Source: a virus. Taken from it: a stretch of 31,469 bases of DNA. Shown piece by piece: positions 2,816-26,593 of this stretch. The translations under genes and the position numbers were made by a program. The stretch lies in IMG/VR virus record IMGVR_UViG_3300028800_000244, positions 1-31,469 of that record; one strand, given 5' to 3'. The notes under the pieces were generated by a model. The model was not told the origin of the DNA and made no database searches. It saw nothing but the letters and a program-made list of their open reading frames with translations. Each line of letters opens with the position of its first letter. The stretch's first letter is position 1.

Positions 2816-3072
2816 GTCTGAAATACCTTTCCTGATGCCATTGCTTCTCGTTCGATTCGGTTGGCGTTCTGTCTTATCTGGTGCGGCGTCTCAGCTCGGT
2901 TCTGGTTGGAACCTATCCTGACGATGAGGAACTTCTTGGACGCCTCGTGCGTGAGACACGCATGTCGTGACTTCATGGAGAACGACCATCCTGGTCTGGA
3001 TAGTACCTCCTCGACGGCCTTCTTGACGTCGGAGTTACCCCACTTCGGTTTTCTGAGGGTCCTGCGGCTCAT
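2812..3072 (-). CDS. small basic protein, possibly HicA/dsRBD-like fold, 86 aa
   Basis: It begins MSRRTLRKPKWGNSDVKKAV and is strongly basic. Its order, helix, GWSFSMKSRHACLTH strands, a FLIVRIG strand and a final helix, recalls the alpha-beta-beta-beta-alpha fold of HicA-type toxins and other small RNA-binding proteins. The usual G-S-H-catalytic pattern of HicA is not clear, and no HicB partner is adjacent. I therefore treat the fold as a guess. Start fixed by an ATGA overlap with the upstream gene. Confidence 0.5.
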   Translation of the reverse strand: MSRRTLRKPKWGNSDVKKAVEEVLSRPGWSFSMKSRHACLTHEASKKFLIVRIGSNQNRAETPHQIRQNANRIEREAMASGKVFQT

Positions 3073-3803
3073 GCCAAGGCCTCGTCGAAAGTCGGAAAGA
3101 CCCGTTCGTCTGGAGATCCCTCCACGTGTTCGTCCCTGAGGACTTCACCCTTCTCCATCGTGATGCGACGGTGTGGAGGAACGTCGATCTTCCACTGGTC
3201 AAATCCTGGAGTCGATATTTCTTCATCATCGAAATGGTCACCGAAAAGACGGCCCGTCTGTTTACGGTAGATCGCTCCCAGAAGGCGGTAATTGATGAGG
3301 GTGATGCTCGCGTCCCAGTGCATACCGAGACGGCCTACATTGCCCCTGTCGAACACCAGGACCCTGGTGATCGCAAATGCCGGTATGCCGCTCAGGTAGG
3401 CGCAGGTACCCATGGCTTTCAGGCTCGTGCGCCAGGGCTTGTCGTTGCTCCCGCCGTCGGCATATTGAAATAGGTTCCGACGGTACCACTCGGTTCGGCG
3501 AGCCATGTCTCCCTTCACGTTGTCTCGACCCCTGCCTGCCTGCTCGAGGACGTCTTCGTCAGGAGCAAAGTAGATGCGATCGAAACGTTCGGTGTCAACC
3601 TCGACGATCACAGGCGAGTGTTTCTTACCGCAGGCGTTCACGGCGAAGTAAGGTGCGTAGGCATCTGTCAGGTAGACGGCTTCCCTGGCCGACGGCGCGT
3701 GGGGCCATAGGCTCCTGGAGCCAGGTCTCTTGTTTCGAGGCAGGATGCCCCTGGTGATGATGTCGTCCAGGGCTGCCGTGGACGTTCCATGGTATAGCTT
3801 CAC
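3069..3803 (-). CDS. putative ADP-ribosyltransferase-fold protein, 244 aa
   Basis: The N-terminus MKLYHGTSTAALDDIITRGI places an HGTS motif at residues 5-8 followed by a helix ending in RGI, then VYLTD (43-47), a Y/F-rich helix, VIVEVD (65-70) and PDEDVLEQ (81-88). An H-G-T-S strand, a helix-GI turn and a later V-Y-L-T strand are typical of the ADP-ribosyltransferase/KptA superfamily that binds NAD. T4-like phages often carry such enzymes (Alt, ModA, ModB) to modify host proteins. The usual R-S-E triad is not seen, so substrate and activity are open. It is the first gene after the promoter at 3831-3859. Confidence 0.55.
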   Translation of the reverse strand: MKLYHGTSTAALDDIITRGILPRNKRPGSRSLWPHAPSAREAVYLTDAYAPYFAVNACGKKHSPVIVEVDTERFDRIYFAPDEDVLEQAGRGRDNVKGDMARRTEWYRRNLFQYADGGSNDKPWRTSLKAMGTCAYLSGIPAFAITRVLVFDRGNVGRLGMHWDASITLINYRLLGAIYRKQTGRLFGDHFDDEEISTPGFDQWKIDVPPHRRITMEKGEVLRDEHVEGSPDERVFPTFDEALA

Positions 3804-16309: not shown

Positions 16310-16654
16310 ATGCCAACGATCCTCAAGAACGGTATCAACCGCCACGTCGTCTTCACCGCCATCGCCAACGATAGCATCCAGCTGTCGGACGTCGTGGTGG
16401 CCAACTCCGGCGAGTCCGTGGACGGCCTGAACATCACCAAGATCATCTGGTCCGGGCAGTGGACGGTCAAGCGCGGTGCAAACACCGTCTGGCAGTCCGA
16501 TGCCCTCACCTTCGGTACCCACGACTTCTCCGGAAACGGCTTCACCCTGAACCAGTTCAACACAGCCAACGTGGTGCTGACTACCTCCGGCAACTCGTTC
16601 ATCGCAGTTGAGTGTAACAAGGCCACCTACGCCAACGGGAGTATCGTGACGTGA
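16310..16654 (+). CDS. probable small structural protein, 114 aa
   Basis: An all-beta looking protein starting MPTILKNGINRHVVFTAIAN, with alternating Val/Ile/Thr strands (SIQLSDVVVANSGESV, IIWSGQWTVKRGANTVW) and no charged helices. The composition, with many Asn/Thr/Gly and few Lys, is like that of phage capsid decoration or tail proteins. I do not recognise the family. It lies among late genes and couples to the next gene through TGATG. Confidence 0.65.
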   Translation: MPTILKNGINRHVVFTAIANDSIQLSDVVVANSGESVDGLNITKIIWSGQWTVKRGANTVWQSDALTFGTHDFSGNGFTLNQFNTANVVLTTSGNSFIAVECNKATYANGSIVT

Positions 16655-16671
16655 TGAAGTTCGACGAGATC
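16652..16671 (+). repeat. 20-nt direct repeat at two gene starts (copy 1; copy 2 at 17038-17057)
   Basis: The 20 nt covering the stop/start junction and the first six codons of the gene at 16654 recur exactly at 17038-17057, the start of the next gene. Both encode MKFDEI. The identity ends right after this stretch. Confidence 0.8.
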
Positions 16672-17040
16672 CGTAAGGCATTCGTGTTCGGTTCTGCCCC
16701 GATATTTGAAGGAAAGTCCGAAATCGAAGCGAGGGCGCCGTACATCACCCACATAAACAACATCTCTTCTATGAGAAGCCGGCATTCCAGCATCGCAAAG
16801 GACATCTCTGCATACGGCGGCGCCGGAACTTCGGAATGGAATCGACACAACGAAGCCGATGCTGTACTCGGAGACGTGGCTGACGCCCTCCATAAGGGTG
16901 ATGAAAAGATTGCCAGGAAGCATTATTCGAGATTGGACTGGAACATCAGAAACGGACACAAGACTGATACGGCCGGCAGTCATGCCTGGACAGGACCTCA
17001 TTCCGTCAAAAATACCAGTATTTGGTTGGATAAAAAATGA
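16654..17040 (+). CDS. hypothetical head-cassette protein, 128 aa
   Basis: The ATG at 16654 gives MKFDEIRKAFVFGSAP; a GTG one codon earlier is in the same frame, but the TGATG junction favours the ATG. The middle (VLGDVADALHKGDEKIARKH then YSRLDWNIRNG) aligns with the GDLAAAGNHEAAKKKWHSLD unit of the 620-aa protein, so the two share a small helical domain. Its AT-richer last part (AAAAAATGA end) differs a little from its neighbours. Function unknown; position suggests a role in the head. Confidence 0.62.
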   Translation: MKFDEIRKAFVFGSAPIFEGKSEIEARAPYITHINNISSMRSRHSSIAKDISAYGGAGTSEWNRHNEADAVLGDVADALHKGDEKIARKHYSRLDWNIRNGHKTDTAGSHAWTGPHSVKNTSIWLDKK

Positions 17041-17255
17041 TGAAGTTCGACGAGATCAAGGAACTCTTCGACAAGATCGAGGAAGCCAGGAAGCCAGCCG
17101 GGACTAACCACCTCGCTGAGTTCGAGCACCACATCAACAAGGCTCTGGCGCACCTCGAGAAGCACGCCAAGACGAACGAGAAGAAAGATCCCGACGTTTC
17201 TGAGGCGTCGTACGAGCTGTACCGGAAAATAGCCAAGGCTAGGGAAGAATACTGA
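17040..17255 (+). CDS. small helical core-type protein before the protease, 71 aa
   Basis: Two in-frame ATG codons abut (17037 and 17040). I take 17040 by analogy with the duplicated start at 16654. The product (MKFDEIKELFDKIEEARKPA onwards) is short, helical and highly charged. It sits exactly where T4 has its small prohead core genes 67 and 68, just before gene 21. It may be a functional equivalent of one of these core proteins; sequence similarity is not evident to me. Confidence 0.6.
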   Translation: MKFDEIKELFDKIEEARKPAGTNHLAEFEHHINKALAHLEKHAKTNEKKDPDVSEASYELYRKIAKAREEY

Positions 17256-17256
17256 C

Positions 17257-17913
17257 ATGAAGCTGCTCCGAGAGATCGTAGAGGACGTCAGGATCCTGAC
17301 GGAAGAAACTGCGGAAGGAAAGAAGCGCCACTACGTGGAAGGCATCTTCCTGCAGGGAGACATCAAGAATCGAAACGGCCGCAGGTATCCCTTCCATATC
17401 CTGGAAGGTGGCACCCGGGCGTACAACGAGAACTACGTCGGACGCAACCGCGCCTGGGGCGAACTGGGCCATCCTGACGGTCCGACCATCAATCTCGACA
17501 GGGTCTGTCTCCTGATCAAGGAGATGAAGCAGGATAAGTCGAACTACATCGGCAAGGCCCTCATCACCTCGACCCCGATGGGTCAGGTCCTGGAAGGTCT
17601 CATCCTAGATGGCGGCAACGTCGGTGTCTCCTCTCGCGCCATGGGAACCCTGAAGGAAGGGACCGACGGCGTGATGGAAGTCCAGAACGACTTCACCCTC
17701 TCTGCGGTAGACGCCGTGGCTGATCCGTCGGCCCCCGATGCCTGGGTCAGAGGAGTGATGGAGAACGCCGAGTGGGTCTACTCGGAACAGCATGGTTGGA
17801 GGATGGCGGAAGCCGCCGACAACCAACGCAAGCAGTTCCAAGGGATGACGATCCAGCAGATCCAAGAGTCAAAGGTCGCCGCATTCGAGAAGTGGCTTAG
17901 GTCAGTCTCGTAG
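17257..17913 (+). CDS. 21: prohead maturation protease (gp21-like), 218 aa
   Basis: This serine protease sits in the prohead core and cleaves scaffold, capsid and internal proteins after [IL]-x-E. The conserved parts are present: YVEGIFLQGDIKNRNGRRYP (residues 26-45), WGELGHPDGPTINL with catalytic His72, GKALITSTPMGQVLEGLI, and GNVGVSSRAMG with the nucleophilic Ser (125/126), followed by LSAVDAVADPSAPDAWV. Length matches T4 gp21 (212 aa). It starts one base after the upstream stop. All catalytic features expected of the herpesvirus-like protease fold are there. Confidence 0.95.
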   Translation: MKLLREIVEDVRILTEETAEGKKRHYVEGIFLQGDIKNRNGRRYPFHILEGGTRAYNENYVGRNRAWGELGHPDGPTINLDRVCLLIKEMKQDKSNYIGKALITSTPMGQVLEGLILDGGNVGVSSRAMGTLKEGTDGVMEVQNDFTLSAVDAVADPSAPDAWVRGVMENAEWVYSEQHGWRMAEAADNQRKQFQGMTIQQIQESKVAAFEKWLRSVS

Positions 17914-19068: not shown

Positions 19069-20406
19069 ATGCTTCTGAATGAAGAAATCAAGAATAAGTG
19101 GAGCGCGGTCATCGACCACGATGGTCTCCCCAAGATCTCCGACGCCCACAGGCGAGCGGTCGTTACCCGTCTCCTCGAGAATACCGAGGTCGAGCTGGGT
19201 AAGGCCGGCGGACTTGGTCCGACGAGCCTCCTCGAGACTTCCGGTGCTGCCCCGACCAACGTCGCGTCCGGCATCCTCAACTACGATCCGGTGCTGATCA
19301 GCCTGGTCCGTCGCGCCATGCCGAACCTCGTCGCCTACGACGTGTGTGGCGTGCAGCCGATGACGGGTCCGACGGGCCTTATCTTCGCCCTCCGTCCGCA
19401 CTACAACAACCAGTCGGATACGACCTACGAAGCCTTCTACTACGAGCCGAACACGGCGTTCTCGACCATCACGGCCGGCAACACCACGATCGGTCAGGCG
19501 AACGGCAACATCGGCGGCGTCTACGGCGTCTCCAACACGGTCGTCGCCTCCGGTAACTCCAGCACCTACAACTACGCCGGCGGCATGCCCACGGCGCAGG
19601 CCGAAGTGCTCGGATCGACCGGCAACGCAGACTTCGCCCAGATGGCCTTCTCGATCGAGAAGGTGTCCGTCACCGCGAAGTCCCGTGCGTTGCGCGCCGA
19701 CTACTCCATCGAACTCGCCCAGGACTTGAAGGCGATCCACGGACTCGACGCCGAGACTGAACTCTCGACGATCCTGACCGCCGAGATCCTGGCAGAAATC
19801 AACCGCGAGGTCATCCGCTCGATCGTCCTGACCGCAGTCCCCGGCGCCGCCGGCACGACCACGGCCGGTACCTTCGACTTGGACGTCGACGCCAACGGCC
19901 GCTGGATGGTTGAGAAGTTCAAGGGCCTGCTGATGCAGCTCGAACTCGAAGCCAACGCCATCGCCAAGCAGACCCGTCGCGGTCGTGGTAACCTCATGAT
20001 CTGCTCGAGCGACGTCGCCTCGGCGCTGACCATGGCCGGTATCCTCGACTACACCCCGGCCCTGGAAGGCAACAATCTCCAGGTAGACGACACCGGCAAC
20101 ACCTTCGCCGGTGTCATCGGTGGTCGCATCAGGGTCTACATCGACCCCTACGCCGGCGGCAACTACATGGTCCTCGGGTACAAGGGAGCCAGCTCGTTCG
20201 ACGCGGGTCTCTTCTACTGCCCGTACGTTCCCCTGCAGATGGTCCGCGCCGTCGGTCAGGACACCTTCCAGCCGCGCATCGGGTTCAAGACTCGATACGG
20301 AATGGTCGCCAACCCCTACAGCCCGGGCGCCACGACTTCCGACGGCTCGTTGGTGATGAACACCAACAAGTTCTACCGCAGGACGCTCATCGCGAACTTG
20401 ATGTGA
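19069..20406 (+). CDS. 23: major capsid protein (gp23-like), 445 aa
   Basis: The HK97-fold shell protein. The diagnostic stretch is at residues 76-108: LISLVRRAMPNLVAYD then VCGVQPMTGPTGLIFAL, the signature used to recognise T4-type gp23. Further landmarks are EKVSVTAKSRALRADYSIEL, RGRGNLMICSSDVASAL and KGASSFDAGLFYCPYVPLQM. A probable gp21 cleavage site is SLLE-TSGA after Glu56, giving a mature shell protein of about 389 aa. T4 gp23 is longer (521 aa), so this is a shorter member of the family. A strong terminator follows. Confidence 0.97.
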   Translation: MLLNEEIKNKWSAVIDHDGLPKISDAHRRAVVTRLLENTEVELGKAGGLGPTSLLETSGAAPTNVASGILNYDPVLISLVRRAMPNLVAYDVCGVQPMTGPTGLIFALRPHYNNQSDTTYEAFYYEPNTAFSTITAGNTTIGQANGNIGGVYGVSNTVVASGNSSTYNYAGGMPTAQAEVLGSTGNADFAQMAFSIEKVSVTAKSRALRADYSIELAQDLKAIHGLDAETELSTILTAEILAEINREVIRSIVLTAVPGAAGTTTAGTFDLDVDANGRWMVEKFKGLLMQLELEANAIAKQTRRGRGNLMICSSDVASALTMAGILDYTPALEGNNLQVDDTGNTFAGVIGGRIRVYIDPYAGGNYMVLGYKGASSFDAGLFYCPYVPLQMVRAVGQDTFQPRIGFKTRYGMVANPYSPGATTSDGSLVMNTNKFYRRTLIANLM

Positions 20407-20435
20407 TCTACACACAACAAGCATTAGAGTAACTA

Positions 20436-20469
20436 GAACCCCCAGGTTTCGGCCTGGGGGTTCTTTTTT
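20436..20469 (+). terminator. rho-independent terminator after gp23
   Basis: A perfect 11-bp stem (GAACCCCCAGG / CCTGGGGGTTC) with a TTTCGG loop is followed by six T residues. It ends the late structural transcript. The next gene, on the other strand, ends within 3 nt of it; read from that side there is no T run, so termination is mainly rightward. Confidence 0.95.
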
Positions 20470-22758: not shown

Positions 22759-23139
22759 ATGACTGATGCATACGCCGCGACACCTGAAGGAATCTTTCGT
22801 TCAGCACTCGCCGCCGCCACGAAGGCTGTCGACGATAACGCACACCTCGAGAACCCAAACGCCCTCGACTGTGGGTTCGCATGGGTCACGGTGAAGCCGG
22901 CGCGGGGGCCGTTCGTCACCTACCTGAAGAAGAAGATCGCTTCGCTCCCGCCGGGAAGCCCATTGGCTCGCCAGTATGGTTCACGGGATGACTACAAAGG
23001 TGGGTGGATGTTCTGGAAACCTGGCTCAGAGAACTTTCGTGGTCAGTCGATCGCTGTCTTTGAAGCTGGAGCCAAAGCATTCGCGACGGTGCTGAACAGC
23101 CACGGAATCAAGGCTTCCGTGAGCTCCAGACTCGACTAG
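22759..23139 (+). CDS. conserved-looking hypothetical protein, 126 aa
   Basis: Starts MTDAYAATPEGIFRSALAAA. The sequence has a well-structured look: CGFAWVTVKPARGPFVTYLK, a Gly-rich stretch with KGGWMFWKPG and a last part GQSIAVFEAGAKAFATVLNS followed by HGIKA. Repeated aromatic and Gly positions suggest a compact alpha/beta domain, and I believe relatives occur in other phages, but I know no function. It runs convergent with the gp23-fragment gene, whose frame continues antisense through its 3' end. Confidence 0.65.
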   Translation: MTDAYAATPEGIFRSALAAATKAVDDNAHLENPNALDCGFAWVTVKPARGPFVTYLKKKIASLPPGSPLARQYGSRDDYKGGWMFWKPGSENFRGQSIAVFEAGAKAFATVLNSHGIKASVSSRLD

Positions 23140-23355
23140 CGACATAGCGAATATCTGTCCTGTGGGGCCCAGCATCGGTTGGGCCCCACAGATGTCATAG
23201 GCGACGAGACCAGGAAAAGTTCTCCTGACGAGATCGATCAACTTCGGTGGTGCGATTCCTGCATAAGCCTTCACCGGCATCAGTGACGATACCCTGACGA
23301 TCGCAGGTGCGGAGATGATGGCGCCGAGGAAACCGCGTCGAGATATGTTGGTCAC
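23026..23355 (-). CDS. Tat-like leader joined to a gp23 capsid fragment, up to 109 aa
   Basis: The GTG start overlaps the upstream stop (GTGA). The protein begins MTNISRRGFLGAIISAPAIV, a twin-arginine-type leader. Residues 39-71 match residues 76-108 of this phage's own capsid protein at 24 of 33 positions, including LVAYDICGAQPM and GPTGQIFA. This gp23-like part (23143-23241) ends 3 nt from the stop of the convergent gene; beyond it the frame runs antisense through that gene for lack of a stop, so the last 38 residues are doubtful. It may be a small functional protein or a relic of a capsid gene fused to a leader. DNA divergence from gp23 argues for an old event. Confidence 0.55.
   Translation of the reverse strand: MTNISRRGFLGAIISAPAIVRVSSLMPVKAYAGIAPPKLIDLVRRTFPGLVAYDICGAQPMLGPTGQIFAMSLVESGAHGSLDSVAVQHRRECFGSSFKDSDRLTTKVL
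23160..23191. repeat. perfect 12-bp inverted repeat inside the gp23-like segment
   Basis: CTGTGGGGCCCA (23160-23171) and TGGGCCCCACAG (23180-23191) form a 12-bp perfect stem around an 8-nt loop, just after the stop of the + strand gene. It could end transcription from both convergent sides, although no T run follows. On the - strand it encodes part of the gp23 signature (C-G-A-Q-P-M-L-G-P-T-G). Confidence 0.75.
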
Positions 23356-23954
23356 CCAGCCCTCCTCGGATTCAGGGAAAAATAGACCTGGTCCCTACTG
23401 AACAACGCCATACCGGTATGTTGATCTCGGCCGACGGATCTGGATCCCAGCTTGACCCTGTATCCACCTCCATTCCACTCGCTGAGGGTACGTCTATCCG
23501 TGTCCGTGGGTCTCGTCGTCGTCCTCATGTCTCCACGGCTTTGTGGTGAGGAGGATTCCGACGACTGATATGACGGCGGCACCGATGAATATCCAGTCTG
23601 AGAGACACATGCTCCTATTCCTGCATCATTCGGCCACGGCTTCTTCCTAGCCCTGCACATTGGACAGGAATAGCACGGCGATCGATATAGAGAACTACGA
23701 ACTTTCTCAAGCTGTCGAAGCCCATCCATGTATTTCCGGTGGTTGTCTGCTGACACCATCTCGTCCAGACGTGACTTGACGTGATGTACATGCACCTTCC
23801 AGAAAGTGTAGTTACCGATGTTCTCGGCGTAGCTACATCGTACCGGTCCGTTTCTCAACTGGCCGAGACGGTGGATGACGGCCGAGATGATGTCCCCATG
23901 TTGGAGGAGAACCATCTCGACTGCCATGGCCTCTATGTCGGAAGCCTCGACCAC
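23352..23954 (-). CDS. hypothetical protein, 200 aa; possibly two coding parts
   Basis: The GTG start lies 2 nt after the upstream stop. The first 110 residues look genuine: MVEASDIEAMAVEMVLLQHG, a helix-rich region, then a Cys motif SPCYSCPMCRARKKP. Residues 118-142 have a Ser-rich composition typical of a wrong frame and coincide with the nested membrane gene at 23494-23610. From MRTTTRPTDTDRRTLSEWNG (ATG at 23528) the sequence again looks protein-like. So this may be one protein, or two genes in the same frame around the nested one. No family recognised. Confidence 0.45.
   Translation of the reverse strand: MVEASDIEAMAVEMVLLQHGDIISAVIHRLGQLRNGPVRCSYAENIGNYTFWKVHVHHVKSRLDEMVSADNHRKYMDGLRQLEKVRSSLYRSPCYSCPMCRARKKPWPNDAGIGACVSQTGYSSVPPSYQSSESSSPQSRGDMRTTTRPTDTDRRTLSEWNGGGYRVKLGSRSVGRDQHTGMALFSRDQVYFSLNPRRAG
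23494..23610 (-). CDS. nested single-pass membrane protein, 38 aa
   Basis: In another frame of the 200-aa reading, an ATG preceded by CAGGAATAGGAG opens a 38-codon frame: MCLSDWIFIGAAVISVVGIL, then a Thr/Lys turn and an acidic-His tail. This is a textbook short membrane protein with one hydrophobic helix (residues 6-22) and a charged cytoplasmic end. Such small membrane genes are frequent in this phage. Which frame is used here needs comparison with relatives. Confidence 0.5.
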   Translation of the reverse strand: MCLSDWIFIGAAVISVVGILLTTKPWRHEDDDETHGHG

Positions 23955-26098: not shown

Positions 26099-26593
26099 TC
26101 AGGGAGCCCAGTCATGCTCAGATTCCGCTTCCTCTACGGAAGGGGCTTCGGCCTCGAGGTCGACGGCCTTCCGCATGATCATCATGTCTGACTGGAGGGC
26201 CTCGATGAAGCCGGCGAAGCGCAGCATGTCGTGCGTGGTCGGATTGTACGTTGAGGTCTTGGCTCTGTCGACGAAGCACTCGATGGGACTTCCATCCCTG
26301 ATGTAGATCTGGACCCCCTGGTCCATCCACACCCGCATCTCCCCCAGGTTCTTATCTTCCTGGGAAGACAGGTGTTTTACGCTAGCACCTGGCATAGGTT
26401 CGATGATGTTCATGCTCTGGAACAAACCGATGACCGGTGTGTAGTTCCACCATTTCCTGCACTGCGGATCGGCGCAGCAGAGGTTGATGCTGATTCCTGA
26501 TTTTGGACCCTCAACAAAGGACTGACTACCGCAGCTGCACTGCTTTCCAGAGAGGGTCTTGATCTTAGCTGCTGGGAGAGGCCACTGGTTCAT
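26099..26593 (-). CDS. zinc-ribbon-like hypothetical protein, 164 aa
   Basis: The start MNQWPLPAAKIKTLSGKQCS follows the upstream stop by one base. Residues 19-47 contain C-S-C-G, then L-C-C-A-D-P-Q-C-R-K-W-W, a treble-clef or zinc-ribbon style Cys set followed by a Trp pair. This may bind nucleic acid. The rest is alpha/beta and ends acidic. It is the last gene of the group before the DUF932 promoter. The exact family is not known to me. Confidence 0.62.
   Translation of the reverse strand: MNQWPLPAAKIKTLSGKQCSCGSQSFVEGPKSGISINLCCADPQCRKWWNYTPVIGLFQSMNIIEPMPGASVKHLSSQEDKNLGEMRVWMDQGVQIYIRDGSPIECFVDRAKTSTYNPTTHDMLRFAGFIEALQSDMMIMRKAVDLEAEAPSVEEAESEHDWAP

Follow-up and report, generated by a model that had tools for sequence, protein, structure and literature searches.

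The stretch of DNA analysed here, referred to as the window, comprises the 31,469 nucleotides of the IMG/VR virus record IMGVR_UViG_3300028800_000244. Its minus strand encodes a small protein in which a leader of the twin-arginine (Tat) type is joined to a short piece resembling the major capsid protein gp23. The features of this locus and of the gp23 gene are as follows.

19069-20406, plus strand: gene of the major capsid protein gp23, the type from which the piece stems (Pfam and PHROG)
19294-19392, plus strand: segment of gp23 (residues 76-108) that aligns with the small gene (protein alignment)
22759-23139, plus strand: convergent gene, 126 aa, matching phrog_22149 (E=9e-11)
23026-23355, minus strand: small gene of 109 codons with a GTG start, consisting of Tat-type leader, gp23 piece and antisense-coded C-terminus
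23029-23139, minus strand: residues 73-109 of the small gene, antisense to the convergent gene, whose frame scores best there
23143-23247, minus strand: gp23-like piece, residues 37-71, corresponding to about residues 95-127 of T4 gp23 (Pfam, PHROG, alignment to the phage's own gp23)
23160-23191: perfect 12-bp inverted repeat in codons 55-66 of the small gene
23248-23355, minus strand: leader, residues 1-36, with RR at 6-7, an uncharged stretch, APAIVR at 16-21 and SLMPVK at 24-29 (family motif)
23352-23954, minus strand: upstream gene, 200 aa
23361-23367, minus strand: Shine-Dalgarno sequence GAGGAGG, separated from the GTG start by a 5-nt spacer

Translation of the small gene from its GTG gives VTNISRRGFLGAIISAPAIVRVSSLMPVK / VTNISRRGFLGAIISAPAIVRVSSLMPVKAYAGIAPPKLIDLVRRTFPGLVAYDICGAQPMLGPTGQIFAM.... 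The initial annotation had proposed translational coupling to the upstream neighbour, which is confirmed by the overlap of the GTG start with the stop of that gene in the sequence GTGA and by the GAGGAGG motif. In both the leader and the gp23-like part, frame 0 has the top codon score among the six frames. From about residue 72/73 to residue 109 the codon score is higher in the frame of the convergent gene; since that frame scores better there, residues 73-109 are probably an incidental by-product of running into the convergent gene and are probably without coding selection in the frame of the small gene. The end of the gp23-like part at 23143 indeed lies next to the convergent stop at 23139, as had been noted before.

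Recomputation of the alignment reproduced the reported identity: of the 33 residues at 39-71, 24 are shared with residues 76-108 of the phage's own gp23, and the two genes encode 14 of these 24 by different codons. The gp23-profile search suggested for the 109-aa protein returned Pfam Gp23 (PF07068) above the cut-off (E=1.7e-12), with residues 37-78 aligned to positions 6-48 of the 376 positions of the profile. The product also matches PHROG 138 (E=2e-13), and in a comparison within the same contig its tail matches the phage's own gp23 at 71% over 35 residues (E=4e-12). The resemblance to gp23 is far beyond chance. The full capsid fold is absent from the product, which retains only about 35 of 445 residues, and a tail that carries a virion piece without the rest of the capsid fold cannot be a capsid subunit.

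A different reason for the retention of the fragment could be a function as RNA or DNA, with the inverted repeat beyond the convergent stop forming a transcript end. With -30.9 kcal/mol on the plus strand, the repeat at 23160-23191 forms a stronger hairpin than any other in the window; it starts 20 nt past the stop at 23139, and A58 and L62, at which the small gene departs from gp23, lie within its paired bases. An intrinsic terminator has a G+C-rich stem followed by a T-run, but a T-run is absent here on both strands. Furthermore, the gp23 match persists outside the hairpin (12/16 and 3/5 residues), the leader is left unexplained, and such hairpins are not a feature of the related genes described below, being found in 3 of 142 ORFs among the matches listed versus 1.8 expected. 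Retention as a nucleic acid element is accordingly rated improbable; the hairpin may still help to end the convergent transcript as an extra local role. The sole other perfect repeat of at least 10 bp in the window lies behind gp23, at 20435-20464, and is an ordinary terminator. Elsewhere in the window, the minus strand at 3069-3803 encodes a 244-aa protein starting with MKLYHGTSTAALDDIITRGILP, which looks like an ADP-ribosyltransferase or RNA phosphotransferase-type fold.

The small gene very probably belongs to a widespread family of phage genes in which a conserved leader (RRxFLxG...APAIVRxxSLM[PK][VI]) precedes a virion-protein piece. The initial annotation had described one curious gene. 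The gene itself stands, but it is not a lone case: the search for relatives with a leader-plus-fragment layout revealed many phages that carry the leader with a piece of their own capsid protein, and the capsid part differs between phages. A scan of IMG/VR contigs with the pattern AIVRxxSLMPV, which sets no arginine requirement, retrieved 84 ORFs with an RR upstream in all 84; one further match of the same scan was an unrelated protein and is excluded from this count. Together with a second, wider DNA pattern on IMG/VR contigs (APAIVRxxxLM), at least 142 distinct small ORFs were obtained. Among the matches listed, the 142 ORFs encode proteins with a median length of about 96 aa, and the motif positions A, P, A, I, V, R, S, L and M are near-invariant. 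The stretch from RR through IV spans 16 residues in 103 of these 142 ORFs, and the stretch following RR contains a charged residue or histidine in 31 of them. In 83 of the 142 the start lies at most 8 nt from the stop of the upstream ORF, so translational coupling is common in the family. The ORF of the window matches the leader profile with E=3.5e-11, being itself among the profile sequences. Behind the near-invariant leader, the tails are hypervariable and 40-110 aa long.

The twin-arginine character ascribed to the leader is borne out by the RR, the uncharged, weakly hydrophobic stretch and the conserved APA, all of which are present. The stretch after RR has a mean Kyte-Doolittle value of 1.84, and a few family members match Pfam TAT_signal. 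Since the RR is conserved, the stretch is weakly hydrophobic and APA or VRA sites are present, we infer that the leader would act as a working Tat signal directing the product to or across the inner membrane, with cleavage at APA or VRA. A conserved DNA repeat or mobile element was excluded as the source of the conservation, because the leaders agree as protein while their synonymous sites are mostly far diverged. Weak Tat-type leaders were also observed on a 657-aa protein (G017 contig, 35987-37957, minus strand) and on a tailspike-like fragment (G020 contig, 17181-17768, minus strand); the leader family may have originated from Tat leaders of phage tail proteins. A pair of genes sharing a start but differing in the tail also occurs in the window itself: the overlapping small genes at 16651-17040 and 17037-17255, located before a prohead-protease-like gene, both have the N-terminus MMKFDEI followed by different bodies and possibly encode prohead core peptides.

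The leader motif is nearly absent from 85,000 bacterial and archaeal genomes, in which 9 loci were found, mostly on short MAG contigs and several of them alphaproteobacterial. A Bradyrhizobium locus (L245) was considered as a cultured model and dismissed, its ORF list being without clear phage genes. No homologue was detected in isolate phages when the whole protein and leader consensuses were compared by tblastn with 50,697 phage records; these searches yielded gp23 alone, nothing or one insignificant match. Likewise, no isolate relatives were found for two other leader proteins and one tail, and a combined leader and gp23 DNA pattern returned noise. The split gp23 genes of Aeromonas phage Ah1 proved to be unrelated, representing overlapping reading frames in the annotation. 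A fixed genomic context was not found for the family, whose upstream neighbours encode, among others, scaffold, terminase, primase and endonuclease VII. No publications on such leader-capsid fusions were found in open-access PMC text, and the family of leaders fused to pieces of the phage's own capsid is apparently undescribed so far.

The origin of the tails was analysed in two sets of contigs. In the first set of 51 whole or near-whole contigs, 20 of 54 tails match a protein of the same contig with E<0.01, versus 2.1 expected from the rate of tail matches in other contigs. Major capsid proteins account for 19 of the 20 matches and fall into five PHROG families (138, 212, 283, 9953 and 1357); the remaining match is to a portal protein. 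The targets in three contigs (G016, G008 and G050) were assigned via homology to the scanned ones. The same analysis of a second set (33 tails, 34 contigs) gave 7 matches versus 0.67 expected, all 7 to capsid proteins, and an eighth tail matches a capsid protein at E=0.03. Among 20 contigs whose capsid gene could be identified, 17 of 23 leader ORFs match the capsid protein of their own phage, versus 1 of 10,573 other small ORFs. The evidence lies in this contrast rather than in the 17 of 23, because these contigs were mostly picked for having a match. All PHROG-annotated tail matches in the PHROG and Pfam searches are virion proteins, namely capsid, head-tail connector, collar and tail fibre; about two thirds of the tails have no recognised source. 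The donor is most often the phage's own major capsid protein (gp23, P22-like, gpE-like and others) and sometimes a portal or connector, collar or tail-fibre protein. The source region within the capsid protein varies by phage and includes the N-arm, the middle and the C-terminus. This piece differs even among gp23 phages: in a second gp23 phage (L020/L080), whose gp23 is 53% identical to that of the window, one tail corresponds to the C-terminal part of gp23 (residues 376-427 of the window's gp23 ORF, numbered from the stop that precedes it), with a gap of 8 residues. This phage has two leader ORFs located 1.3 and 2.5 kb downstream of gp23 on the opposite strand, and the small gene of the window likewise lies 2.6 kb downstream of gp23 on the opposite strand.

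Several individual loci deserve mention in their own right. The lone match among the control ORFs (G006 contig, 26118-26588, minus strand; tiles L114-L116) has no Tat leader and matches the N-terminus of its own capsid protein at E=1e-4. In L061 (2913-3673, minus strand) and L018 (5674-6287, plus strand), leader genes are arranged in tandem and overlap at their ends; each of them bears its own portion of one capsid protein, different from that of its neighbour. The tails in L270 (3091-3360, minus strand), L277 (211-513, plus strand) and L283 (10530-10784, plus strand) are apparently mosaics of two capsid segments, the N-terminal helix and a middle-region strand (GDxxTIxG) of a P22-like capsid protein, and the tail in L285 joins, as judged by eye, connector-like and collar-like pieces. 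A common tail with a metal-binding-like motif (PRCxxC...GMCxHTGGP) and of unrecognised origin is found in L045 (4594-4848, minus strand), L086 (477-731, plus strand) and L294 (1155-1469, plus strand).

Wherever both can be identified, the type of the tail is the capsid type of the contig, and the capsid protein encoded on the same contig is often, but not always, the nearest relative of a tail. When ten P22-type tails were placed in a tree with the matching capsid segments, the tails were intermixed with the capsid proteins and sat on long branches, and the tail of L030 clustered with the divergent subtype to which the capsid protein of its contig belongs. This pattern suggests that pieces were captured more than once and have since evolved under constraint, yet faster than the capsid protein itself. 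Selection was estimated from other members of the family, as the window record is a fragment for which no close relative with both parts was found. For a pair of orthologues that both carry the leader and a P22-like tail (L023 and L254), the leader has a Ka of 0.31 and a Ks of 1.09 (Ka/Ks about 0.28) and the tail a Ka of 0.30 and a Ks of 1.5 (Ka/Ks about 0.20). Other orthologue pairs point in the same direction, with Ks near saturation. Wherever orthologues are available, purifying selection thus acts on the leader as well as on the tail.

These values bear on the suggestion in the initial annotation that the small gene arose by chance fusion of a leader gene with a gp23 fragment and is now a relic in decay, for which a lack of relatives with both parts or a dN/dS near 1 had been named as the sign. 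Neither sign applies: many phages have the leader followed by a piece of their own capsid protein, and the values for leader and tail, estimated separately in this orthologue pair, are far lower than 1. A direct orthologue keeping exactly the two parts found in the window was not detected by tblastn against the 50,697 phage records or in a related-locus search, and the last 37 residues of the product are encoded antisense to a different gene, both of which would fit a relic. Against this, the gene has a perfect Shine-Dalgarno sequence, a coupled start and the correct coding frame in both parts, and the same architecture recurs across unrelated phages under purifying selection. In view of this selection on both parts among orthologues, the genes of the family are not relics, and decay of the copy in the window is considered very improbable.

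With regard to function, the leader could be the active part, acting as a small membrane peptide or as a competitor for the Tat machinery, while the tail could be any soluble sequence, with virion genes as its commonest donors. This would account for a near-invariant leader in front of hypervariable tails that are partly of unrecognised origin. It is unlikely, however, in view of the purifying selection on the tails (Ka/Ks about 0.2), the donors, which are almost solely capsid proteins and not arbitrary genes, and the retention of one capsid segment in ten phages (alignment A6).

A role in assembly control is doubtful but deserves consideration. A membrane-held piece would bind the full-length capsid protein as its partner through N-arm or E-loop contacts and thereby tether, delay or poison head assembly, either for timing or placing assembly or for hindering a co-infecting phage with a similar capsid. 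The assembly of T4-type heads begins on the inner membrane, the N-terminal part of the capsid protein supplies most of the mapped pieces, and tail and capsid type agree wherever they are comparable, all of which is in line with such a role. On the other hand, some pieces stem from the capsid protein's middle or C-terminal part and others from collar and tail-fibre proteins, and a phage would gain little from poisoning its own heads.

The best explanation overall, with a probability of roughly 0.4, combines membership in the leader family, a Tat leader and a role as virion mimic. Capsid mimicry and interference with assembly, both proposed in the initial annotation, remain candidates. The likeliest role, advanced tentatively, is that of a virion-protein mimic which occupies a partner of that protein: the tail would mimic part of the virion protein, the likeliest partner would be a host factor sensing capsid proteins, and the leader would remove this partner or pin it at the membrane. 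Our best guess is therefore capsid mimicry directed to the membrane or periplasm, for instance as a decoy for capsid-sensing host factors. To our knowledge, the capsid sensors described so far are located in the cytoplasm, and an export leader has no obvious fit to a decoy role there. The varied capsid regions in the tails also speak against a decoy, because a single preferred epitope would be expected if the decoy were aimed at one sensor, and close co-evolution of tail and capsid, as expected of a decoy tracking its target, is unsupported since only some of the tails have the phage's own capsid as their best match. AlphaFold models are of low confidence (pLDDT 53-59) and were uninformative.

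The recognition of one conserved leader defines a class of genes with recognisable variable parts in phage dark matter, which is usually tackled gene by gene, and APAIVRxxSLM together with RR provides a simple sequence handle for it. Pieces of the phage's own capsid were acquired independently in phages with unrelated capsids, and this recurrence points to a general selective need. It is conceivable, if somewhat speculative, that phages of many capsid types share a common Tat-leader device that brings pieces of their own virion to the envelope. In that case, the infected cell or its neighbours would meet 'self-virion' peptides, by which capsid-sensing immunity would be blinded or the cell marked as taken. 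If the product is exported or held at the membrane, it would connect virion proteins with the envelope in a new way and might constitute a new form of counter-defence against capsid sensing.

Compared with known systems, the family leader shares with Tat signal peptides a short n-region, RR-x-F/L-L, a weakly hydrophobic stretch and an AxA-type site (APA or VRA). In contrast to an ordinary Tat signal, its conservation extends past the expected cleavage site (SLM[PK][VI][KR]) and its spacing is nearly fixed. The tails are homologous to stretches of 30-60 residues of full-length major capsid proteins (PF07068 Gp23; PHROG 138, 283, 212, 9953 and 1357), which, unlike the tails, have the remaining fold. 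Capsid proteins are established triggers of bacterial immunity in the Lit/Gol system (PMC3014915) and in Thoeris (PMC11312562), and CapRel immunity is triggered by phage major capsid proteins (PMC9712102). In the Gol/Lit system of T4, EF-Tu is bound and Lit activated by Gol, a short peptide located in the first quarter of gp23 (PMC3014915); this peptide acts by itself, and the fragment in the window (T4 residues 95-127) is derived from the same quarter. Gol, however, acts inside full-length gp23, whereas the piece in the window is a separate gene with an export-type leader, and most family members draw on capsid families other than the gp23 of Gol. CapRel and Thoeris recognise major capsid proteins, which are the main source of the family tails (PMC9712102, PMC11312562). 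While these two are host sensors, the family protein would be a counter-measure of the phage.
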